Shown here piece after piece: positions 25,094 to 36,511 of a stretch of 64,000 nt of DNA; within the stretch, counting starts at the first letter, position 1, and each line of letters starts with the position of its first letter. Origin of the DNA: Nitratireductor sp. B36. GTDB lineage: Bacteria; Pseudomonadota; Alphaproteobacteria; Rhizobiales; Rhizobiaceae. The stretch is from positions 124,001 through 188,000 of the forward strand of contig NZ_JACKZY010000005.1 in NCBI RefSeq assembly GCF_020833685.1, in the 5' to 3' direction. The position numbers and the translations under genes were made by a program. Below the pieces are notes generated by a model. That model saw nothing but the letters and a program-made list of their open reading frames with translations. It was not told where the DNA came from and made no database searches.

Positions 25094-25768
25094 TCAGGCG
25101 CCCTTTTCCAGCTCCTCGAACAGAGCGACAACAGCATCCTGCGCCACGGCTATGTGATAGCGCAGTGCACCACGCAGCTGTTCCTCATCGCGCTTTCTCA
25201 ACGCTTCCATGATCGGCTCATGAGTCTCGGCCATGCGCTGCGGGTCATCGTAAATTTTGCCGATCAAGGTGATACCGGCGCGCATCTCGGTCGCCAGTTC
25301 GTCATAGACCCGGATCAGACGCGCATTGCCGCTCGCCTTGCAGATCATGCGATGAAAGGCGAAATCCTCGAAAATCTGTGTCTCGATAGACGCCTGACCG
25401 GCCGTGCCGTAGAGACGTCCAAGCTGCTTTTCGAGAGCGGCGAGATCGGCCTCGGTAGCGCGCTCCACCGCAAGACAGCCTGCATGCAGTTCAAGGCCGA
25501 TGCGCAGCTCGTAAATGTCGCGCATCTCGCTGGCGCTGAAGGTGCGAACGAAAAAACCGCGCCGCGGTGAGAAGGTGACAAGACCCTGGCTTTCCAGAAG
25601 CCGGGCCGCCTCGCGGACAGGGGCGCGGCTGGTGCCGAACTCGCGCGAAAGCTGAAGCTCCGTCAGCCGTTCGCCGGGCTTAAGATGCCCGGTGACAATC
25701 GCCTCGGTGATCTGCCGGGCTATCTGCGTCACCAGATCCGTTGTGGATACTTCCGAAAACACGCTCAC
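25094..25768 (-). CDS. GntR-family regulator, FadR/FCD subfamily
   Basis: 224 residues from GTG 25768, which has GGGAA seven bases upstream; longer in-frame starts lack similarity. The winged helix is VTQIARQITEAIVTGHLKPG, then ERLTELQLSREFGTSRAPVR, then EAARLLESQGLVTFSPRRGF. The C-terminal FCD all-helical domain has the usual metal-binding pattern (EDFAFHRMICKASGN and the His in LRYHIAVAQDAV). It is divergent from the 26-35 kb operon and probably controls it in response to a carboxylate or related metabolite. Confidence 0.87.
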   Translation of the reverse strand: MSVFSEVSTTDLVTQIARQITEAIVTGHLKPGERLTELQLSREFGTSRAPVREAARLLESQGLVTFSPRRGFFVRTFSASEMRDIYELRIGLELHAGCLAVERATEADLAALEKQLGRLYGTAGQASIETQIFEDFAFHRMICKASGNARLIRVYDELATEMRAGITLIGKIYDDPQRMAETHEPIMEALRKRDEEQLRGALRYHIAVAQDAVVALFEELEKGA

Positions 25769-25853
25769 CGCCGTTTTCCCAAAACTTCCCCTCCCAATGG
25801 CATCGCAGCGCAGGCGCGGCGTATGTCCCGCCACTATGACAGGCAAAATGACG

Positions 25854-25865
25854 ATTGTCGACAAT
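25854..25865. promoter_or_regulatory. FadR/FCD-type operator
   Basis: ATTGTCGACAAT is a perfect 12-base palindrome whose core, TTGTCGACAA, matches the TnGTnnACnA pattern of FCD-type GntR regulators. It lies between the divergent regulator and the aldolase gene, so it probably controls both directions. Confidence 0.65.
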
Positions 25866-25982
25866 TGACACTCTGCCCGAACCTGTGCTTGCCTGTCGAT
25901 CAACAAAACGGCTCTGAGGGGAGCCGCGCGACAACACATGACCACCGTTCGTGACCGGACGGTTTGCGCGAGGGAGATGTTG

Positions 25983-26762
25983 ATGAACGTACAATCCCAA
26001 CCGGTTTCAGCCGCAGACACGGGGCAGCCGCGCGAGCGGGTCGAGCTGGCTGCGGCCTACCGCCTGATCGCGCATTATCACCTGGATGACAGCATTTTCA
26101 CCCACATTTCGGCTCGGGCGCCGGCAGAGGAGGGTGAGCACGCCTTCCTGATCAACCCGTTCGGCCTGCGTTTCGACGAGGTGACGGCATCGAGCCTCGT
26201 GACCGTCGACATCAATGGCGACATCCTGCGCGACAATCATGGCGCGGGCATCAACAAGGCCGGCTTCACCATTCACAGCGCCGTCCATGCCGCGCGGCCC
26301 GATGTGCATTGTGTGCTTCACACGCATACGGTGGCGGGTGTGGCCATCTCCTCAATGGAAGAGGGCATCCTGCCGCTGAACCAGTGGTCGCTGCAGTTTC
26401 ACAACCGCCTTGCCTTCCACGATTATGAGGGCATTGCGCTCGATCTCGGCGAGCGCGAGCGGCTTGTGGCCGACCTCGGCGACCGCAATGTCATGATCCT
26501 GCGCAATCACGGGCTTCTGACCTGCGGGCGCACGGTGGGCGAAGCCTTTGCGCTGATGTTCAACATGGAGCGCGCCTGCCGCGCCCAGCTCGCCATCATG
26601 TCTTCGGGCGGAAAGCAGATCCGCATTGCCGAGGAACTGGCCGAGAAAACGGCGCGCCAATATGAGGGCTGGGACACCCATCACACCGGTAACAAGCCTG
26701 ACCCGCAATGGGAGGCCTTCCAGCGCCTCGCCATCAAGCACTATCCCGACCTCGTGGAGTGA
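25983..26762 (+). CDS. Class II aldolase/adducin-like protein
   Basis: 259 residues. The zinc ligands of the fold are visible as HxH in HCVLHTHTVAG and a third His in LRNHGLLTCG; DDSIFTHISARAP and FLINPFGLRFDEVTASSLV are family landmarks. Members include sugar-phosphate aldolases, 3-oxo-4-phosphate decarboxylases and uncharacterised adducin-like enzymes, so the reaction is open. AGGGAG at 25971-25976 selects ATG 25983. It is the first gene of a long operon and is followed after 85 bases by a peptide-type binding protein. Confidence 0.82.
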   Translation: MNVQSQPVSAADTGQPRERVELAAAYRLIAHYHLDDSIFTHISARAPAEEGEHAFLINPFGLRFDEVTASSLVTVDINGDILRDNHGAGINKAGFTIHSAVHAARPDVHCVLHTHTVAGVAISSMEEGILPLNQWSLQFHNRLAFHDYEGIALDLGERERLVADLGDRNVMILRNHGLLTCGRTVGEAFALMFNMERACRAQLAIMSSGGKQIRIAEELAEKTARQYEGWDTHHTGNKPDPQWEAFQRLAIKHYPDLVE

Positions 26763-26847
26763 GGCCGGACTGACGCAAAGCCAATTGCCCGACACGATCA
26801 AGGGAGAACGATCTTTCGCCGGGCGAGCAACAAGGGGAACGAAAGCC

Positions 26848-28395
26848 ATGCTGAAACGACTGACCACACTTGCCGCCGCCATGCTGGTCTCGACGGCGCT
26901 CCATGCAGAGCCCGTCTCGGGCGGGCGCGCCAATGTCGTGATCCAGCCCGAACCGCCAAGCCTTATGATGGGTCTGGTCCAGAACGGCCCGACACAAATG
27001 GTCGCCGGCCAGATCTATGAGGGTCTGCTGCGCTACGACGAGAAGCTGCAGCCCATGCCGCAGCTTGCGAAATCGTGGGAAGTTTCCGAGGACGGCCTGA
27101 CCTATACGTTCAAGCTGCACGACAATGTGAAATGGCATGACGGCGAGCCGTTCACCTCTGCCGACGTGGTGTTCTCCGCCGATGTCTTCCTGCGTGAAAC
27201 CCATGCGCGCCTGCGCACCTCGCTGGAGCATGTGGAATCCATCACCGCACCCGACGACACCACGGTCGTCTTCAAGCTGAAGCAGCCCTTCGGCCCGTTT
27301 CTCGGCATTTTCGAGGCCGGCACGATGCCGATGGTGCCCAAGCACATCTATGAAGGCACGGATTACAAGAACAACCCGGCCAACAACACGCCGATCGGCA
27401 CCGGGCCTTTCAAGTTCGAAGAGTGGGTGAAGGGTTCGCATATCCTGCTCACCAAGTTCGAGGATTACTATGAGGAGGGCAAACCCTATCTCGACGAGAT
27501 CTACTGGCATGTGATCCCGGACGCGGCTTCGCGCGCGGTTGCCTATGAGACGGGCGTGGTGGACATTTTGCCCGGCGGCTCGGTGGAGAATTTCGACGTC
27601 CAGCGGATCGCTGATATGGAGAACACCTGCATCACCGACAAGGGCTGGGAGTATTTCGGTCCGCTCTCGTGGATGTGGCTCAACAACCGCGAAGGCCCGA
27701 CGGCCGACAAGCGCTTCCGCCAGGCGGTCATGTATGCGATGGACCGCGACTTCGCCCGCGACGCGCTGTGGAACGGCCTCGGCAAGGTTGCCAAAGGCCC
27801 GGTGTCCTCGTCGACGCGTTTCTTCACCGACGACGTGACCGCATATGACCACGACCCGGAGAAGGCCAAGGCCCTGCTCGAAGAGATGGGCTATGACGGC
27901 GAGACCGTGCGCCTTCTGCCACTGCCCTATGGCGAAACCTGGCAGCGCTGGGCCGAGGCCGTGAAGCAGAATCTCGGCGAAGTGGGCATCAATGTCGAGA
28001 TCGTCTCCACCGATGTGGCCGGCTGGAACCAGAAACTGGCCGAGTGGGACTACGACATGGCCTTCACCTATCTCTACCAGTATGGTGATCCGGCACTGGG
28101 CGTGGCCCGCACCTATATTTCCACGAACATTGCCAAGGGCTCGCAGTGGAACAATGTGGAAGGCTACGAGAACAAGGAGGTCGACGATCTCTTTGCCAAG
28201 GCCGCGGTGGCCGTGACGGCGGAAGAGCGCCAGGAGCTCTACACCGAAGTGCAGCAGAAACTGGTGGACGACGTGCCGGTTGCCTGGCTGCTCGAACTCG
28301 GTTTCCCGACGATCTATCGTTGCAATGTGAAGGATCTCGTCACCACGGCCATTGGCGTGAATGACGGCTTCAAGGACGCCTATATCGAAAAATAG
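26848..28395 (+). CDS. ABC solute-binding protein, family 5 (peptide/opine type)
   Basis: 515 residues, signal peptide ending near LHA-EPVSGGRA. Family 5 landmarks: NGPTQMVAGQIYEGLLRYDE, LAKSWEVSEDGLTYTFKLHD, GEPFTSADVVFSADVFLRET and TPIGTGPFKFEEW. The ligand is probably a small peptide, an acylated amino acid or an opine-like molecule; sequence alone does not tell. Start ATG 26848 begins the signal peptide. A stem-loop separates it from the permease gene. Confidence 0.9.
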   Translation: MLKRLTTLAAAMLVSTALHAEPVSGGRANVVIQPEPPSLMMGLVQNGPTQMVAGQIYEGLLRYDEKLQPMPQLAKSWEVSEDGLTYTFKLHDNVKWHDGEPFTSADVVFSADVFLRETHARLRTSLEHVESITAPDDTTVVFKLKQPFGPFLGIFEAGTMPMVPKHIYEGTDYKNNPANNTPIGTGPFKFEEWVKGSHILLTKFEDYYEEGKPYLDEIYWHVIPDAASRAVAYETGVVDILPGGSVENFDVQRIADMENTCITDKGWEYFGPLSWMWLNNREGPTADKRFRQAVMYAMDRDFARDALWNGLGKVAKGPVSSSTRFFTDDVTAYDHDPEKAKALLEEMGYDGETVRLLPLPYGETWQRWAEAVKQNLGEVGINVEIVSTDVAGWNQKLAEWDYDMAFTYLYQYGDPALGVARTYISTNIAKGSQWNNVEGYENKEVDDLFAKAAVAVTAEERQELYTEVQQKLVDDVPVAWLLELGFPTIYRCNVKDLVTTAIGVNDGFKDAYIEK

Positions 28396-28414
28396 GCGAC
28401 TGCCCGATCCGGGA

Positions 28415-28439
28415 ATGCGCGGGCAAACCGCCCGCGCAT
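28415..28439 (+). repeat. Stem-loop after the peptide-type binding-protein gene
   Basis: Perfect 10-base stem ATGCGCGGGC (28415-28424), loop AAACC, GCCCGCGCAT (28430-28439). No T-run follows, so it is more likely an mRNA-stabilising or attenuating hairpin than a full terminator. Confidence 0.75.
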
Positions 28440-28471
28440 CCTCACCTTGAGTCCGATCCTGCAGGGGCCCG

Positions 28472-29440
28472 ATGCTACGCTTCATACTCATGCGCCTGGG
28501 CAAGGCGGCGATCATCCTGATCGCCATCCTGACGCTCAACTTCTTCCTGATCCATGCCGCGCCCGGCGATCCCGCTGCGGTGATGGCAGGCGAGGCGGGG
28601 GCCGCCGACGCGAAGTTCATCGCGCAGCTTCGCGAGCAGTTCGGCCTCGACAAACCGCTGCTGACCCAGCTCGGGATTTACCTCAAGGGCGTGCTGCAGT
28701 TCGATCTCGGCTTTTCCTATCGCCAGCAGATGCCGGTGGCCGATCTCATTCTCGACCGGCTGCCCGCCACGCTGCTTCTGACCATGACGGCCTTCGTCAT
28801 CTCGCTGGTCCTGGGCACTCTGGCAGGCGTTCTCGCCTCCGCGCGTGTCGGCAAATGGTCGGACACGGCGATCTCCACCCTGGCGCTGCTTTTCTACGCC
28901 ACGCCGCTCTACTGGGCGGCGCTGATGGCGGTGCTTCTGTTCTCCGTTTATTTCAACTGGCTGCCGGGTTTCGGTTATGAGACGGTGGGGGCGAACTACA
29001 CCGGCTTGCGCCGCGCGCTCGACATCGGCCAGCATCTCATCCTGCCCGCGACCACGCTCGGCCTCTTCTTCATGGCGGTCTATATGCGCATGACGCGCGC
29101 CTCCATGCTCGAAGTCAGCCAACTCGATTTCGTCAAGACTGCGCGGGCCAAGGGGCTGAAGCCCGGCATCATCCAGCGCCGCCACATCTTCCGCAATGCC
29201 ATGCTGCCGGTGGTGACGCTTGCCGGTCTTCAGGCGGGTCAGCTCGTGGGCGGCGCGGTGCTGACCGAAACCGTGTTCGCATGGCCCGGCATCGGGCGTC
29301 TGATGTTCGAGGCGCTCGCCCAGCGCGACTACAATCTGCTTCTTGGCGTGTTCTTCGTGTCCGCCGCCATGGTGCTCCTGTTCAACCTCATCACCGACAT
29401 TCTCTATCGGTTCGTTGACCCAAGAATCCGGGTGGCATGA
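28472..29440 (+). CDS. Peptide-type ABC permease (DppB-like)
   Basis: 322 residues. The N-terminal membrane segment is followed by AAPGDPAAVMAGEAG and LREQFGLDKPLLTQLGIYLK, the DppB signature, then five more membrane segments. The EAA loop is DFVKTARAKGLKPGIIQRRH. ETVFAWPGIGRLMFEALAQR is diagnostic. It overlaps the next permease gene by four bases. Confidence 0.93.
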   Translation: MLRFILMRLGKAAIILIAILTLNFFLIHAAPGDPAAVMAGEAGAADAKFIAQLREQFGLDKPLLTQLGIYLKGVLQFDLGFSYRQQMPVADLILDRLPATLLLTMTAFVISLVLGTLAGVLASARVGKWSDTAISTLALLFYATPLYWAALMAVLLFSVYFNWLPGFGYETVGANYTGLRRALDIGQHLILPATTLGLFFMAVYMRMTRASMLEVSQLDFVKTARAKGLKPGIIQRRHIFRNAMLPVVTLAGLQAGQLVGGAVLTETVFAWPGIGRLMFEALAQRDYNLLLGVFFVSAAMVLLFNLITDILYRFVDPRIRVA

Positions 29441-30279
29441 TGGCTGATTTCTGGAAACGCTTCTCCCGCAATCGTGGCGCCGTGATCGGCCTTGCGATCC
29501 TCGCCATCGTCATTCTGGTGGCGCTGCTTGCGCCGCTGATCTTCCCGCAATCGCCGTGGCGCATGGTGCAGCGGCCCTTCCTGCCGCCGTTTGCCATGGA
29601 CCAGTATCCGTTGGGAACCGACGCGCTTGGCCGTGACGTGATCTCGGGCCTTGCCTATGGGGCGCAGGTCTCGCTTCTGGTCGGTCTCGTCTCGACGGTC
29701 GCCGCCCTTCTGATCGGCATCCCCATCGGCGCGCTTGCGGGCTATTTCGGCGGCTGGGTGGACGACGCGCTGATGCGCTTTACCGAATTCTTCCAGACCG
29801 TGCCGAGCTTTGCGCTCGCCATCGTTCTGGTGGCGATCTTCCAACCCTCGATCGAATCGATCATCGCGGCAATCGCCATCGTAAGCTGGCCGCCGGTCGC
29901 GCGCCTCGTGCGCGGCGAGGTGCTATCGCTGCGCTCGCGCGAATATGTGGAAGCGGCCATTCTTTCGGGCCAGACGAGCCTGACGATCATTCTGCGGCAG
30001 GTTCTGCCCAACACGATCTCGCCCATCATCGTGCTTGCCTCGCTGATGGTGGCAACGGCGATCCTTCTGGAATCCTCGCTCTCCTTCCTTGGGCTCGGCG
30101 ACCCCAACCTCATGTCGTGGGGCTACATGATCGGCGCGGCGCGCACGGTGATCCGGCAGGCCTGGTGGCTTTCCTTCTTCCCCGGCGTTGCCATTCTGCT
30201 CACCGTTCTGGCGCTGAACCTGATCGGCGAAGGGCTGAACGATGCGCTCAACCCGCGCCTTGCGCGGCGCGGCAAATAG
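29437..30279 (+). CDS. Peptide-type ABC permease (DppC-like)
   Basis: 280 residues, six membrane segments. The DppC features are visible: YPLGTDALGRDVISGLAYGA after the first membrane segment, the EAA loop YVEAAILSGQTSLTIILRQV, LESSLSFLGLGDPN and a GEGLNDALNPRLARR C-terminus. It pairs with the DppB-like subunit. Confidence 0.93.
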   Translation: MMADFWKRFSRNRGAVIGLAILAIVILVALLAPLIFPQSPWRMVQRPFLPPFAMDQYPLGTDALGRDVISGLAYGAQVSLLVGLVSTVAALLIGIPIGALAGYFGGWVDDALMRFTEFFQTVPSFALAIVLVAIFQPSIESIIAAIAIVSWPPVARLVRGEVLSLRSREYVEAAILSGQTSLTIILRQVLPNTISPIIVLASLMVATAILLESSLSFLGLGDPNLMSWGYMIGAARTVIRQAWWLSFFPGVAILLTVLALNLIGEGLNDALNPRLARRGK

Positions 30280-30288
30280 GAGGGCGCG

Positions 30289-31911
30289 ATGACAGAGCCC
30301 GTTCTCAAAATCAGAAACCTGAAGATCGCGCTGCCGGAGGGTGCCGACCGAGACTTTGCCGTCAACGATGTTTCCTATGATCTTCATGCCGGTGAAATTC
30401 TCTGCATTGTCGGGGAATCGGGTTCCGGCAAATCCATGTCGGCCAATGCGGCCATGGGGCTTCTGCCCGATCTGGTGCGACCGGTGGGCGGCGAAATCCT
30501 CTTCGAGGGCATGGACCTTCTGAAACTCTCGGAAACCGAGATGATGGACCTGCGCGGCAAGAAGATCGCCATGATCTTTCAGGAGCCCATGTCGGCGCTC
30601 AACCCGCTGATGCGGGTGGAAGACCAGATCGCCGAAGTGTTCGAGGCGCATGGTCTGCTGACGCCGAAGGAGCGTGCAGCGCGCGCCATCGAACTCCTGA
30701 CGGAAGTGGGCATTCCCGATCCGGAAAAGGCGGCGCGGGCCTATCCGTTCCAGCTTTCCGGCGGGCAGCGGCAGCGCGTCATGATCGCCATGGCATTGGC
30801 GCTCGAACCGCGCATGCTGATCGCCGACGAGCCGACCACCGCGCTCGACGTGACCACGCAGGCGCAGATCCTGGAGCTGATCCGCAATCTGCAGGAAAAG
30901 CACGGCATGGCCGTGATGTTCATCACCCATGATTTCGGCGTGGTGGCCGAGATCGCCGACCGCGTGGCGGTGATGCAATATGGCAAGATCGTCGAGGCGG
31001 GCACCGCCGACGAGGTTTTGGACAACCCGCAGCATGAATATACGCAAAAGCTGATCGCGGCGATCCCGAAGCTTGCCGCCGAGGCGGGCGAGGAAACGGC
31101 GGGAAAGACGCCGATCCTCGAAGTGGAAGGGCTCAACAAGACCTATGTGACCGGCGGTGGTCTGCTCTTTTCCAAGCCGCGTATCGTTCACGCGGTCAAC
31201 GATGTGAACCTGACGCTCAGCGAGGGCGAGACACTGGGCATTGTCGGCGAATCCGGCTCCGGCAAATCGAGCGTCGGGCGCTGCCTCGTGCGGCTGATGC
31301 AGCCCGATTCCGGCACGGTGAAGCTCGCCGGACACGACATGGCGCAGCTCTCCGGCGAGGCGCTGCGCGAGGCGCGCAAATCGATCCAGATGATCTTTCA
31401 GGACCCTTACGCCTCGCTCAACCCGCGCTCCAAGGTTGGCCGCATCATCGCCGAGGGGCCGATGGCGCATGGGGTTTCCAAGCAGGAAGCCTATGCGCGC
31501 GCGGTGAAACTTCTGGAACTGGTGGACCTCGATGCGCTCGCCATCGACCGCTATCCGCACGAGTTTTCCGGCGGGCAGCGCCAGCGCATCGGCATTGCCC
31601 GCGCGCTGGCGCTGGAGCCGCGCGTGATCATTGCTGACGAGGCGGTTTCGGCGCTGGATGTTTCCATTCAGGCGCAGGTGCTCGATCTTCTGGCGGAGCT
31701 GAAGGAGCGGCTCAATCTGGCGCTGATCTTCATTACGCACGATCTGCGGGTTGCGGCCCAGATCTGCGACCGCATCGCCGTGATGCAGAAGGGCAGGGTG
31801 GTCGAGATGGGGCCGGCGCATGCCATCTTCAACAATCCACAGAGCGACTATACGCGCACCCTGATCGAGGCCATTCCCGGCCGCGAGAAGGAGCTGGCGG
31901 CGGCGGGGTGA
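30289..31911 (+). CDS. Peptide-type ABC ATPase, two fused nucleotide-binding domains (DppD-DppF / GsiA-like)
   Basis: 540 residues carrying both ATPases in one chain. Domain 1 has Walker [13 protein letters not shown], signature [16 protein letters not shown] and Walker [13 protein letters not shown]. Domain 2 has [28 protein letters not shown] and [12 protein letters not shown]. Each has an oligopeptide-type C-terminal region; [10 protein letters not shown] and [10 protein letters not shown] mark the domain ends. AGGAGG precedes the ATG. The next gene is 352 bases away, across repeats. Confidence 0.93.
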
Positions 31912-31955
31912 CGCGGTGACGACTGGAGCTCACTTCAGCGCGGTGCGTGCCCATT

Positions 31956-32205
31956 CCCTCGCCCTTCGACAAGCTCAGGATGAGGGAACGGGCATGGAGA
32001 GGCTGACGTCTGTGGCGGCGTCTTGCTGTGGTTGGGTGGTGCGTGCCCGTCCCCTCGCCCTTCGACAGGCTCAGGATGAGGGGAGGGGCATGGAGAGGCT
32101 GGCGTCTGTAGTATCGCATATACAAACGCTCGCGCATCCACTGTTAGCACTCATCCAGTTCGCACCTCCACAAGCCCTCATCCTGAGCCTGTCGAAGGGC
32201 GAGGG
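31956..32205. repeat. Three copies of a dispersed 31-base repeat in a 352-base spacer
   Basis: Copies at 31956-31986 and 32052-32082 (forward; core CGCCCTTCGACAAGCTCAGG and CGCCCTTCGACAGGCTCAGG) and at 32175-32205 (inverted). Opposed copies can pair across the spacer. The same family recurs at 53375-53604. Otherwise the 31912-32263 stretch holds no gene I can support. Confidence 0.85.
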
Positions 32206-32263
32206 CGGGATGATGCGCGCCATCGCTCACCACTCTCAACACTAATCTGCAGGAACCACCGAC

Positions 32264-33565
32264 GTGGACGAACAACTGGCACAGAAGATCCTCGCAGCGG
32301 TCGAGGAAGGCTTTGAAGAACAGATCGGCTTTACCGAAGACCTGATCCGCTTTCCCTCGCTGCGCGGAAAGGAAAAGCCCGCACAGGAATTCGTTCACAA
32401 GGCGCTTGAAGCGCGTGGCTACGCGGTCGAAACCTTCCATATCGATGAAGACAAGATCAAGGATCATCCGGGCTTTTCGCCCGTGGCCGTCGATTATTCC
32501 GACGCGGTGAACGTGATCGCCACCCACGAGCCGCGTGAAAACAGAGGCCGGTCGCTGATCCTCAACGGCCATATGGATGTGGTGCCGGAAGGCCCGCACG
32601 ATATGTGGGAGGTTTCGGCACCCTATGAGCCGAAGCGCGAGGGCGACTGGCTTTATGGGCGCGGCGGCGGTGACATGAAGGCCGGCATCGCGGCCAACAT
32701 TTTCGCGCTCGACGCGCTGCGCCGCATCGGCCTGCAACCGGCGGCGAAAGTGCATGTGCAGAGCGTGGTGGAGGAAGAATGCACCGGCAATGGCGCGCTC
32801 GCCTGCCTGGTGGAAGGCTATACGGCGGATGCCGCCATCATTCCCGAGCCGGAAGACGAAATGCTGGTGCGCGCCAACACCGGCGTTTTGTGGTTCGAGG
32901 TGAATGTGTCGGGCCACCCCGTGCATGTGCGCGAGGCGGGCACGGGGGCCAACGCCATCGAGGCGAGCTTCCGCGTGATCGAAAGCCTGAAACGCCTGAC
33001 CGCGGATTGGAACGCCGAGAAGGCGAACTATCCCTATTTCGAGGAGCTCGATCACCCGATCAATTTCAATGTCGGCAAGATCGAGGGTGGAGACTGGGCC
33101 TCCACCGTGGCGGCCTGGTGCAAGCTCTCCTGCCGCATCGCCATCTATCCCGATGACGACCCGAAGGATCGGGCAGCGCAGATCGAGGCGCATCTGGCCC
33201 GCGAACTGGCCGATGATCCCTTTCTTGGCAATCGCCCGCCCGAGGTGATCTGGAACGGATTTTTCGCGCGCGGCTATGTGCTGGAGGAAGGGACCGATGC
33301 CGAAAAGGCGCTGGCCGAAGCGCACCGCGCGGCGACCGCGAGCGAACTGAAAAGTTTCGTCACGCCGGGCTATCTCGATGCGCGGGTGTTCGTGATCTAT
33401 GCGGGCATGCCGTGCCTCGTCTATGGTCCGATCACCGAGAACATCCACGGGTTCGACGAGCGCGTGAGCCTTTCCTCCATCAAGCGGGTGACGGGCGCGA
33501 TCGCGCTTTTCATCGCCGACTGGTGCGGCGTGGAACCCATCGATGCGGAGGCCGCAAATGGCTGA
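32264..33565 (+). CDS. M20-family deacylase/peptidase (ArgE/DapE/ACY1 type)
   Basis: 433 residues, GTG start with AGGA upstream. The dizinc site is complete: NGHMDVVPEG (His, first bridging region), GRGGGDMKAG (bridging Asp), VVEEECTGNG (catalytic and metal Glu), IIPEPEDEM (Glu/Asp) and ENIHGFDERV (His). The dimerisation domain lies between. M20 enzymes hydrolyse N-acyl amino acids or dipeptides. Position after a peptide-type importer suggests it removes an acyl group from the imported compound. Confidence 0.87.
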   Translation: MDEQLAQKILAAVEEGFEEQIGFTEDLIRFPSLRGKEKPAQEFVHKALEARGYAVETFHIDEDKIKDHPGFSPVAVDYSDAVNVIATHEPRENRGRSLILNGHMDVVPEGPHDMWEVSAPYEPKREGDWLYGRGGGDMKAGIAANIFALDALRRIGLQPAAKVHVQSVVEEECTGNGALACLVEGYTADAAIIPEPEDEMLVRANTGVLWFEVNVSGHPVHVREAGTGANAIEASFRVIESLKRLTADWNAEKANYPYFEELDHPINFNVGKIEGGDWASTVAAWCKLSCRIAIYPDDDPKDRAAQIEAHLARELADDPFLGNRPPEVIWNGFFARGYVLEEGTDAEKALAEAHRAATASELKSFVTPGYLDARVFVIYAGMPCLVYGPITENIHGFDERVSLSSIKRVTGAIALFIADWCGVEPIDAEAANG

Positions 33566-34523
33566 CGGACGGGTGATCGAGGGGGTTTATCTGAGCACCG
33601 CCTTCGATCTGCACGCGCTTTATGGCCATGCGCTGGCACCGCATGCAGGCACGATACGCCTGCGCCATCCGCATGAGATCGACAATCCGGAGGAAATCCG
33701 TTTTGCCCTCAGCTGGCGGCCGGCGGATGATGCCTTTGACCCTTATCCGAATCTGCGGCTTGCACATTCCATTGCGGCGGGTGTCGACAGCATCATCAAC
33801 TGCCCGAGCCTGCCAAAGGATGCGCTGGTGGCGCGCGTGCGCGACCCGGACCAGGGCGACATGCTGGCAGGCTTCGCGGCATGGCATGTGATCTGGCATC
33901 ATCGCAACATGCGCCATCACATCGTGCATGAGGCAAAGCACGAATGGGCGCGGCTCATCCCGTCCATCATGAAGCCGCCGCGTGAAACGCCGGTGGGCAT
34001 TCTGGGTTTCGGCCTGATGGGGCGGGCCATCGCCCGCGCGGTGACGGCCATGGGGTTTCCGGTGGTGGCCGCCGCGCGAAACGCGCCGGCGGAAGATGTG
34101 CCCGGCGTGCACTTCGAGAGCGGGGAAGGAGCCGCCCAGCGCGTTGCGGAACAGGCCGCCATCCTGATCAACGTTCTGCCGCTGACGGGAGAGACGCGCG
34201 GGCTGCTTAATCTCGATTTCTTCAACCGCATGCCGGAAGGCGCCGCACTCATCCAGCTTGGGCGGGGCGAACATCTGGTCGAGGCCGATCTCCTGCGCGC
34301 GCTCGACAGCGGGCGCATTGCCTCCGCCTCGCTCGACGTTTTCGACGTGGAGCCGCTGCCCAAAGAGCACCCCTTCTGGGCGGATGAGCGCATTCTCGTC
34401 ACGCCGCATCAGGCGGGCGATTGCTCGCCGCACACGATGGCCGAACAGCTTGCCAGCGCCGCACAGGCAGTGGTGGCGGGAGACATACCGGAAACGGTGG
34501 TCGACAGATCCAACGGATATTGA
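33558..34523 (+). CDS. 2-hydroxyacid dehydrogenase, GhrA-like
   Basis: 321 residues. The Rossmann motif GILGFGLMGRAIARA binds NAD(P)H; catalytic residues are Arg in LIQLGRGEHLVEADLL, Glu in DVFDVEPLPKEHPF and His in VTPHQAGD. It resembles glyoxylate/hydroxypyruvate reductase A. ATG 33558 is supported by GGAGG and overlaps the M20 gene by eight bases, so the two are co-translated. It probably interconverts a 2-oxo acid and 2-hydroxy acid produced in this operon's pathway. Confidence 0.85.
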   Translation: MADGRVIEGVYLSTAFDLHALYGHALAPHAGTIRLRHPHEIDNPEEIRFALSWRPADDAFDPYPNLRLAHSIAAGVDSIINCPSLPKDALVARVRDPDQGDMLAGFAAWHVIWHHRNMRHHIVHEAKHEWARLIPSIMKPPRETPVGILGFGLMGRAIARAVTAMGFPVVAAARNAPAEDVPGVHFESGEGAAQRVAEQAAILINVLPLTGETRGLLNLDFFNRMPEGAALIQLGRGEHLVEADLLRALDSGRIASASLDVFDVEPLPKEHPFWADERILVTPHQAGDCSPHTMAEQLASAAQAVVAGDIPETVVDRSNGY

Positions 34524-34532
34524 AGGACGACA

Positions 34533-35561
34533 ATGAAAGCCATTTTCGACGAACGCCAGTTGCGGCACACGCCGGAGCGCTATTTCCGGCGCGGGGCCTA
34601 TATGCCCCATCCCGAACAGGCTGAACGCGCGATCCTGATCCGCGACATGCTGATTAAAAACGAATTCCCCATCGAGAAACCCCGCGATTTCGGCGACGGG
34701 CCGATCAAGGCGGTGCACGATCCGGACTATGTGGATTTCTGGAAGGACGCCTACCAACGCTGGCGCGCGGAGGCGCCGGATCAGGAACCGATCCCCAACT
34801 GCCACCCCGGTCCGCGCCGGGGGCGGCCTTCCTCATCCGTTTTCGGCCAGCTCGGCTGGTGGGCGACCGACACGTCGGTTCCGCTGACGGAAGGCACGTG
34901 GGATGCCGTCTACTGGTCGGCGCAGACGGCGCTTGAGACCGCCGAGCGCGTGAAGGAAGGCGAACGCATGGTCTATGGCCTGTGCCGCCCGCCGGGACAC
35001 CATGCGCTTTCCAATGCGTCGAACGGCTTCTGCCTGTTCAACAACGCGGCCATCGCAGCGCAAAGCCTGCGCGAACGCTTCGGCAAGGTGGCGGTGCTCG
35101 ACATCGACACGCATACGGGCAATGGCACGCTCGACATCTTCTATGATCGCGGCGACGTTTTCGTCTGCTCGCTGCACACGGACCCGGACCTCTACCCGAC
35201 CTATTATCTCGGCTATGAGGACGAGCGCGGCGAGGGCGAAGGCGAGGGGGCGACGCTCAATCTCTGCCTGAAACCCGGATCGGATACGGAAACGATCCTT
35301 GGCCGCTTCCGCGAGGGGCTTTCGGCCATCACCGCCTTTGGCGCGGAGGCGCTGGTGATCTCGCTCGGGCTCGACATGGCGGCGGACGATCCGCTCTCGG
35401 AGGTGAAGCTCACGGGCGACGGCTTTGCCACCATGGCGCGCGAGATCGCGGCTCTGGGGCTACCAACGGCGCTGATCCAGGAAGGCGGTTATCTGGGCCC
35501 GTCGCTTTCGAGAAATGCGGAGATCTTCCTCACTGCCAGCCGCGAAGCACTGGCGGGCTGA
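34533..35561 (+). CDS. Histone-deacetylase-family amidohydrolase (acetylpolyamine amidohydrolase type)
   Basis: 342 residues. HDAC-fold landmarks: catalytic His pair in RPPGHHALS, metal ligands in VLDIDTHTGNGTLDIFY (Asp, His) and SLGLDMAADDPLSEV (Asp), and the transition-state Tyr in IQEGGYLG. The N-terminal region and the loop with NCHPGPRRGRPSSS match bacterial acetylpolyamine amidohydrolases, which deacetylate N-acetylputrescine, cadaverine or similar. GAAGGACG precedes the ATG. It is last in the operon, next to the M20 gene, giving two predicted amide hydrolases in one pathway. Confidence 0.87.
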   Translation: MKAIFDERQLRHTPERYFRRGAYMPHPEQAERAILIRDMLIKNEFPIEKPRDFGDGPIKAVHDPDYVDFWKDAYQRWRAEAPDQEPIPNCHPGPRRGRPSSSVFGQLGWWATDTSVPLTEGTWDAVYWSAQTALETAERVKEGERMVYGLCRPPGHHALSNASNGFCLFNNAAIAAQSLRERFGKVAVLDIDTHTGNGTLDIFYDRGDVFVCSLHTDPDLYPTYYLGYEDERGEGEGEGATLNLCLKPGSDTETILGRFREGLSAITAFGAEALVISLGLDMAADDPLSEVKLTGDGFATMAREIAALGLPTALIQEGGYLGPSLSRNAEIFLTASREALAG

Positions 35562-35575
35562 GACAGCTCACGGCG

Positions 35576-36511
35576 TCATTGCACGCTTTGCGGATCGGGT
35601 GCTGGCTGAACCGGAGTGACCGGCCTTGCCAGCGCCCGCTCACGGAACACGATGTAGAGCCCCGCACCCATGGTGATGGCGATGCCGAGTGCGGCCAGCC
35701 CATTGGGCAGATCGCGGAAGATGAGCCAGCCAATGACCGTGGCGAACGGGATCTCCAGATACTGGATCGGCGCCACGGTGGCCGATGGCGCAAAGCGCAG
35801 CGACCACGTCATGAGAAGGTGGCCGAATGTGCCGAAGAAGCCGGAGGCGATAAGAAGCAGCATTTCCCGCATGTCGGGCTGCACCATGCGCAGTTGCGGC
35901 AGGTCGAACCCCAGGTTTAGCATGGCCAAGAAACCAAAGCCGATCATGGCATAGATGCCGCTCACCACCTGAAGCGCGATGGGGTCGGCATCGCGCGAGA
36001 TCTGGCGCGTCACCAGCATATAGCCGGAGAAGGCGACCGCCACGAGAAGCGGCAGAAGTGCTGGCGCACCGACGGTCAGGAAGCTCGGCTGCACAACGAG
36101 CATGGTGCCGACGAAGCCGACCGAACAGGCGGCAAGCCGCCTTGGCCCCACATCCTCGCCCAGAAAGAATTTTCCAAAAGCCAGCATGATGAAGGGCATG
36201 ACGAAGGCGATGGCCACGGCATCGGCCAGCGGCAGATAGCGCAGCGACATGAACATCGCGCCGATGCCGGCAATGTGGAGCGCCGTGCGCAGCACGGTGA
36301 GGCGCATGACGCGGGGAGAAAGAAGCAGCGACTTGCCGCTCCACCACACGACCGGCATAAGAAACACCACCTGCGCGGCAAAACGCACCACCAGCAGCTC
36401 GAACAGCGGAATGGTCTCGCCCAACAGTTTTGCGATCGAGTCGCCCAGAGGGGCGACCGCGCAGAACCCGATCATCAAGAGGATGCCGACAAGCGGCCGG
36501 TCGTTTGACAT
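35576..36511 (-). CDS. EamA/DMT-family transporter
   Basis: 311 residues and ten predicted membrane segments in two EamA repeats; MFMSLRYLPLADAVAIAFVM and APIQYLEIPFATVIGWLIF are family hallmarks at the ends of the repeats. DMT proteins export small metabolites such as amino acids or purine-related compounds. Its gene is convergent with the amidohydrolase gene (14 bases apart) and 96 bases from the following dehydrogenase stop; the substrate is unknown. Confidence 0.87.
   Translation of the reverse strand: MSNDRPLVGILLMIGFCAVAPLGDSIAKLLGETIPLFELLVVRFAAQVVFLMPVVWWSGKSLLLSPRVMRLTVLRTALHIAGIGAMFMSLRYLPLADAVAIAFVMPFIMLAFGKFFLGEDVGPRRLAACSVGFVGTMLVVQPSFLTVGAPALLPLLVAVAFSGYMLVTRQISRDADPIALQVVSGIYAMIGFGFLAMLNLGFDLPQLRMVQPDMREMLLLIASGFFGTFGHLLMTWSLRFAPSATVAPIQYLEIPFATVIGWLIFRDLPNGLAALGIAITMGAGLYIVFRERALARPVTPVQPAPDPQSVQ

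Follow-up and report, generated by a model that had tools for sequence, protein, structure and literature searches.

What does a bacterium import and break down with an operon that joins a peptide-class importer to an amide hydrolase of the HDAC fold, a hydroxyacid dehydrogenase and a class II aldolase? The question is raised by a 64,000-nucleotide stretch of Nitratireductor sp. B36 (contig NZ_JACKZY010000005.1, positions 124,001 to 188,000; hereafter the window), in which such an operon and its regulator occupy positions 25094 to 35561. Every part is a member of a known family, and literature searches aimed at the gene combination found no description of the operon among the open-licence papers listed as matches. 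We propose that it is probably a catabolic operon, induced by its substrate, for the breakdown of a small amide conjugate lacking a free alpha-ammonium group.

An FCD-family GntR regulator (25094..25768, minus strand; GTG start placed from an annotated homologue; Pfam FCD 90.5 bits, GntR 65.4 bits) is transcribed divergently from eight plus-strand genes. These begin with a class II aldolase/adducin-family enzyme (ALD2; 25983..26762; PRK07044 321.6 bits, cut-off 207) and a family 5 solute-binding protein (SBP5; 26848..28395; Pfam SBP_bac_5 304.4 bits), followed by a DppB-like permease (28472..29440) and a DppC-like permease (29437..30279), both assigned with Pfam and NCBIfam and with overlapping or abutting genes, and by a fused DppD-DppF ATPase (DppDF; 30289..31911) containing two ABC_tran and two oligo_HPY stretches. 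Beyond a 352-bp gap lie an M20 ArgE/DapE-family deacylase (32264..33565; PRK06837 651.3 bits, cut-off 376), which is an optional member of the operon, a GhrA-like D-2-hydroxyacid dehydrogenase (33543 or 33558 to 34523; 2-Hacid_dh_C 134.8 bits, cut-off 25.1) and the HDAC-fold amidohydrolase (34533..35561; Pfam Hist_deacetyl 215.6 bits). Pfam backs every gene assignment, and NCBIfam gives related families for all except the HDAC protein, for which none is listed. Gene starts were refined by comparison with an annotated, near-identical operon on the Nitratireductor kimnyeongensis plasmid pNK_1, which has the same nine genes in the same order. The open reading frames (ORFs), the domains and the M20/GhrA overlap are as described in the first-pass annotation, and the run of genes facing the regulator is real, although it comprises eight genes and not the seven given there.

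The operon is conserved well beyond Nitratireductor. A profile built from seven SBP5 proteins recovered 254 relatives in contigs taken from one genome per species, and the best 80 of the 254 were analysed; these loci were picked by closeness to the window SBP, relatives from Bradyrhizobium and Nitratireductor are abundant among them, and the counts are not independent. The FCD regulator is present in 55 of the 80 loci, ALD2 in 64, DppB in 78, DppC in 77, DppDF in 76, M20 in 30, GhrA in 58 and HDAC in 74, the last being found under 32 of 35 genus or metagenome-assembled-genome labels (labels derived from record titles). GhrA always occurs with ALD2 (58/58), and all 58 of these loci keep the order ALD2-SBP5-DppB-DppC-DppDF-GhrA on one strand. 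Close HDAC relatives (55-98% identity) are the last gene of the operon in most loci, and remote ones (~40% identity) mostly adjoin FCD on the opposite strand; exceptions include L114 and L119-L121 (61-63%, opposite strand) and L098, L109, L112 and L118 (41-43%, downstream). The position of HDAC thus varies across loci yet the gene stays with the importer, which indicates that the association has outlived rearrangement. By record titles, the operon is spread over three orders of Alphaproteobacteria (Hyphomicrobiales, Rhodobacterales and Rhodospirillales) and one Comamonadaceae plasmid. This is the neighbourhood comparison that the first-pass annotation had proposed, and it shows that the adjacency of the enzymes in the 80 closest loci is not random; the dedicated, co-regulated unit postulated there is borne out as a conserved set for import, amide hydrolysis, 2-hydroxyacid oxidoreduction and C-C bond chemistry. 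Its two hydrolases do not form a fixed pair, M20 being present in just 30 loci: 26 of the 37 loci whose HDAC is of the closer group have it, as against 3 of the 37 with the other group. As single variants, GhrA was not found in the otherwise complete operon of Chelativorans sp. YIM 93263 (L058), where HDAC directly follows M20, and a 1.3-kb gap separates GhrA from HDAC in L040.

Between the FCD and ALD2 genes lies the perfect palindrome ATTGTCGACAAT (25854..25865), which occurs at this one place in the 4.19-Mb genome. Its core, TTGTCGACAA, is present in 26 of 60 divergent FCD-ALD2 intergenic regions, or in 25 of 54 once six separately fetched loci are removed, two of which are on the same contigs as other loci in the count; the background across loci is 0.016 per kb, corresponding to ~0.3 expected occurrences in 60 intergenic regions. 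Carriers are mostly close relatives but also include Tistrella, Thalassospira, Limimaricola (2 of 3) and Chachezhania, and the core is in none of the scanned Bradyrhizobium loci. The operator predicted in the first-pass annotation is therefore unique in the genome and recurs in relatives through its core. A single operator site supports one dedicated, regulated unit, as far as can be judged from sequence, and we predict that the FCD regulator would control all of it from this site in response to the substrate.

The binding protein gives a clue to the ligand. By Pfam and NCBIfam, SBP5, the two permeases and the ATPase form a Dpp-type importer, similar to E. coli DppABCDF in having a family 5 binding protein, two permeases and ATPase domains, but different from it in that D and F are fused and in what aligns with two ligand contacts of DppA. 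The position of DppA Asp408 (mature numbering) is Gln in 26 of 26 aligned proteins, and the position of the carboxylate-contacting Arg383 (precursor numbering; Arg355 mature) aligns to a gap in all 26, as it does in OppA. According to excerpts of two reports, the Asp of DppA and OppA contacts the ammonium group of the ligand (PMC3295651, PMC12136057). Because Gln replaces this residue throughout, ordinary dipeptides are unlikely to be ligands of SBP5. A structure model of SBP5 has a mean predicted local distance difference test score of 80.3, with residues 415-434 weak, and the matches listed in a structure search with it are, by title, binding proteins of the same class; CtaP and AgaA rank first among those listed by Foldseek. 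AgaA is second among the matches listed both by sequence and by Foldseek, with 27% identity. The Agrobacterium opine systems to which AgaA and MoaA belong also rely on a family 5 protein to bind an amine conjugate, although we know of no Agrobacterium opine operon with an HDAC-fold hydrolase, GhrA or ALD2. Opine and acetyl-amine catabolic operons more generally have a similar plan, from which the window operon differs by its combination of an HDAC-fold hydrolase with a peptide-class importer, and by GhrA and ALD2. A family 5 transporter elsewhere in the same genome (contig C2; L167, 104000-123000), near a 65%-identical relative of the omega-aminotransferase described below, was considered as well and is a different system, with an SBP identity of 35%.

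In the pathway that we propose, SBP5-DppBCDF would import an amide-blocked conjugate and the HDAC-fold enzyme would cut an amide bond, with the M20 enzyme or a carbamoylase-type zinc hydrolase, where present, opening a second amide or acyl bond. Interconversion of D-2-hydroxy and 2-oxo acid in the acid half would fall to GhrA or, in other loci, to a PanE-family or GlcD-type enzyme, and ALD2 (elsewhere perhaps a thiamine diphosphate (ThDP) enzyme) would cleave or decarboxylate the 2-oxo acid. The amine half would undergo either transamination or phosphorylation followed by elimination; relatives encode candidate enzymes for this next to the operon, and the window strain probably does so at other places in its genome. 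We infer from the gene set both the directions of these reactions and the placing of the hydroxyacid in the acid half.

The amine-handling genes beside the operon in relatives were overlooked in the first-pass annotation. Of the 80 loci, 18 encode an omega-aminotransferase of PRK06105 type and 22 a phospho-lyase-type class III enzyme, with no overlap between the two sets. The nearest matches of the phospho-lyase are 5g4i and ethanolamine-phosphate phospho-lyase, and an APH-fold kinase accompanies it in 20 of 22 loci (L079 and L089 have another APH-type gene instead); 14 of 21 kinase-lyase pairs are no more than 20 bp apart, with starts taken from the longest ORFs. Comamonadaceae and Thioclava plasmid loci have the PRK06105-type aminotransferase; they are also annotated with a phosphotransferase and, after it, another gene of the class III or aspartate-aminotransferase family. 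The genome of the window strain encodes elsewhere a 65%-identical omega-aminotransferase and, in a 1026-amino-acid frame, a 45%-identical relative of the phospho-lyase. The kinase and class III pyridoxal phosphate lyase recall the ethanolamine kinase and ethanolamine-phosphate phospho-lyase pair, and raise the alternative that the substrates are amides of ethanolamine-type amino alcohols, with the released 1,2-amino alcohol converted to an aldehyde by the kinase and phospho-lyase of relatives, as for phosphoethanolamine. We consider this unlikely, if worth keeping in view. Neither gene is beside the window operon and each is confined to about a quarter of the loci, and in the search with the SBP5 model the row that would favour it is tied with an uncharacterised Bacillus protein (36.4) and CcNikZ-II (36.0), with many others close behind; Foldseek puts CtaP and AgaA first, and the model is weak at residues 415-434.

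The active sites of HDAC, GhrA and ALD2, described as intact in the first-pass annotation, are so across aligned relatives. In HDAC, the His-His, Asp, His, Asp and Tyr positions, which we take to be the zinc site, the His-His pair and the catalytic Tyr, are kept in 81 of 81 sequences. The closest solved entries among the matches listed are named acetylpolyamine amidohydrolases, which suggests a second alternative, namely that HDAC is a true acetylpolyamine amidohydrolase and the operon serves use of acetylpolyamines or N-acetyl-diamines; omega-aminotransferases, moreover, are able to act on diamines. The window HDAC also has RPPGHH and EGGY motifs. An excerpt of PMC11532494 associates these motifs with small acyl groups, as this alternative would have it. 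The position of Mycoplana Glu117, which touches the polyamine according to the part of the report available (PMC5454378), is however Ser or Ala in 81 of 81 sequences, and at that of Glu106 just 4 of the 81 have Glu. The acetylputrescine deacetylase PsApaH carries His at 106 in the excerpted account (PMC11532494). The loss of the Mycoplana contacts is thus not decisive against polyamines, because PsApaH, a proven polyamine deacetylase, also lacks Glu106. In entry 9gkz, which we take to be PsApaH, the 117 position is Gly. The acetylpolyamine-type label given to the hydrolase in the first-pass annotation is not established by these residues. P. aeruginosa PA1409 and PA0321, acetylpolyamine amidohydrolases of the same hydrolase family, presumably sit in other gene surroundings than the window HDAC, and the aldolase and GhrA are additional in the window operon. 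The two P. aeruginosa enzymes are required for P. aeruginosa to grow well on acetylcadaverine and acetylputrescine, as stated in an extract of PMC4784309. The importer, by comparison, is of the peptide class, which counts against polyamines. We also know of no place for an aldolase and GhrA in polyamine breakdown, and hold this alternative to be rather improbable. The two HDAC groups also differ at residue 195, after the zinc-ligand His, where all 40 sequences of the closer group have Thr, Ala or Gly and all 41 of the second group have His.

In GhrA, Arg241, Glu270 and His289, presumably the D-2-hydroxyacid dehydrogenase catalytic triad, are kept in 65 of 65 sequences, although the protein scores below the GhrA equivalog cut-off (NF012013, 151.8 bits against 403). 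In ALD2, all 71 sequences keep His113, 117, 128, 130 and 191, and 70 of them keep His56, the remaining one having a gap there; we assume for these histidines the roles that they have in the class II aldolase family. In some of the loci without GhrA or ALD2, other enzymes seem to stand in. In Skermanella and A. lipoferum a PanE-family enzyme follows the ATPase gene at the place of GhrA, with ALD2 present in both, and these PanE-family proteins (L146 and L147) keep Asn98, Lys176, Asn180, Asn184, Ser244 and Glu256 (E. coli numbering), which we take to be the functional positions of E. coli PanE. A GlcD-type gene is present in 3 of 22 GhrA-free loci (L109, L112 and L118; between DppDF and HDAC in L112). 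ThDP enzymes are found in 5 of the 80 loci, every one without ALD2, and likewise in plasmid loci L136, L148 and L157, the first two from A. argentinense and A. brasilense. In Palleronia L106 and Thioclava L140 the operon includes an amidase gene, and the stretch examined contains no HDAC, a pattern that fits hydrolysis of a small-molecule amide. These stand-ins would be non-orthologous replacements doing the same job, for the 2-hydroxy/2-oxo acid oxidoreductase, for the enzyme acting on the C-C bond of the 2-oxo acid and, with less certainty, in the case of the amidase, for the HDAC amide hydrolase.

The PanE-family stand-in gives rise to a third alternative, in which the substrates are pantothenate-like N-(D-2-hydroxyacyl) omega-amino acids that are hydrolysed to a D-2-hydroxy acid and an omega-amino acid, the former being oxidised and then cleaved by retro-aldol reaction and the latter transaminated. 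More broadly, and at the same low probability, the operon could encode a pathway, so far undescribed, that acts on N-(D-2-hydroxyacyl) amides and has pantothenate or pantetheine as one of its substrates. The six kept positions of the PanE-family enzyme beside ALD2, the M20 or N-carbamoyl-amino-acid-type hydrolases (a carbamoylase-type zinc hydrolase is present in 8 of the 80 loci and, by annotation, in several plasmid loci) and the omega-aminotransferases of relatives all suit such substrates, and pantothenate has no free amine, matching the change in SBP5. In the known pantothenate pathway, though, the 4-hydroxyl is reportedly oxidised first, and a PanE-type gene is at the place of GhrA in just the four Azospirillaceae stretches opened. 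Furthermore, the small acyl group implied by the HDAC motifs (PMC11532494, in excerpt) leaves the bulky pantoyl group to M20, an optional gene. We regard this alternative as doubtful. If true in the broader form, it would supply the missing genes for pantothenate hydrolysis and for pantoate oxidation and retro-aldol cleavage; the protein identity of pantothenase is given as unknown in an excerpt of PMC10393543.

That the locus is an ordinary dipeptide importer with accidental neighbours is very improbable: the fold and permeases are Dpp-type and some distant SBP relatives lack the enzymes, but content and order are conserved in 58 of 80 loci, the ammonium-binding Asp is replaced in 26 of 26 proteins, and the genome has just two HDAC-family genes in total.

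Besides the non-independence of the 80 loci, several observations weigh against a catabolic operon for a blocked amide conjugate, above all as a strict pathway. No aminotransferase adjoins the window operon. GhrA has Arg179 in the cofactor loop (62 of 65), and an Arg there is a rule pointing to NADP(H); this suggests NADP(H) use, so that reduction is possible in place of the proposed oxidation. ALD2 occurs without GhrA in 6 of the 80 loci. Six of the 80 lack HDAC, and while the contigs of L083 and L091 are short (6.7 and 3.3 kb), it was not found in long stretches of L072, L094, L106 and L132. Thalassospira L088 has HDAC plus an amidase of the same cluster, which weakens an exchange of the two, and the PanE-like proteins of A. 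argentinense and A. brasilense have lost five of the six positions, keeping Glu256, at loci where ALD2 is absent. An SBP search of plasmids, with 14 records opened among 30 of 72 matches and 13 annotated loci counted (unannotated L145 was left out), reached lower SBP identity and gave 10 loci with HDAC, 7 with M20, 6 with ALD2, 3 with a GhrA-type gene and 4 with a PanE-type gene; HDAC, ALD2 and GhrA are all missing from Pararhizobium L135 and Thioclava L140, and in Neorhizobium L139 the SBP gene stands without any partner gene. Only 6 of 16 loci fetched for a GhrA relative contain the operon, and six plasmid stretches carry HDAC relatives at 41-44% identity but no window-type importer. Taken together, the distant plasmid loci and those seeded with HDAC or GhrA indicate that the SBP5-HDAC link is the broadest, and that the ALD2-GhrA part belongs to closer relatives.

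Some of these looser associations have a character of their own. In L038 and L039, relatives of GhrA and ALD2 (46-53% identity) adjoin each other in divergent orientation, with no close importer, and may be a pair in their own right. HDACs of Shinella (L150) and Parasedimentitalea (L152), 42-43% identical, are inside a different cluster with a polar amino acid ABC importer, a class III aminotransferase, a 3-keto-5-aminohexanoate-cleavage-type enzyme and, in Shinella, a GNAT protein; this cluster could serve breakdown of an N-acetylated beta-amino acid. A variant on the Chelatococcus CO-6 plasmid (L157) combines gabT, the ThDP enzyme, importer, HDAC, zinc hydrolase, kinase, class III enzyme, DMT transporter and cupin, and directly adjoins a complete ectoine uptake and catabolism cluster. 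Ectoine catabolism was rejected as a general function, ectoine names appearing in 1 of 20 annotated plasmid stretches (a count that does not extend to the 80 genome loci). A DMT-family transporter recurs near the end of the variant cluster in L136, L138, L146, L147 and L151, twice with a small cupin gene. A search of viral contigs with the HDAC protein found no relative.

In the window itself, the gap between DppDF and M20 contains a repeat element (31942..32205) made up of two 72-nt direct copies that are 92% alike and a perfect inverted repeat with 31-nt arms; Rfam at its gathering threshold gave no match in the 24-37 kb part of the window. Directly beyond HDAC is an EamA gene (35576-36511, minus strand). 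Four Nitratireductor plasmid records match the window SBP at 91-99% identity among the matches listed, and since one of these plasmids is 299,709 bp and the window contig 287,752 bp, the window may be part of a plasmid or chromid.

For many HDAC-fold enzymes of bacteria no substrate has been assigned. The one described here is part of a conserved, probably catabolic operon that has a single operator and includes a dedicated importer. Once identified, the ligand of SBP5 would give function to several protein subfamilies together, and would probably reveal an environmental amide that is used by many soil and marine bacteria.

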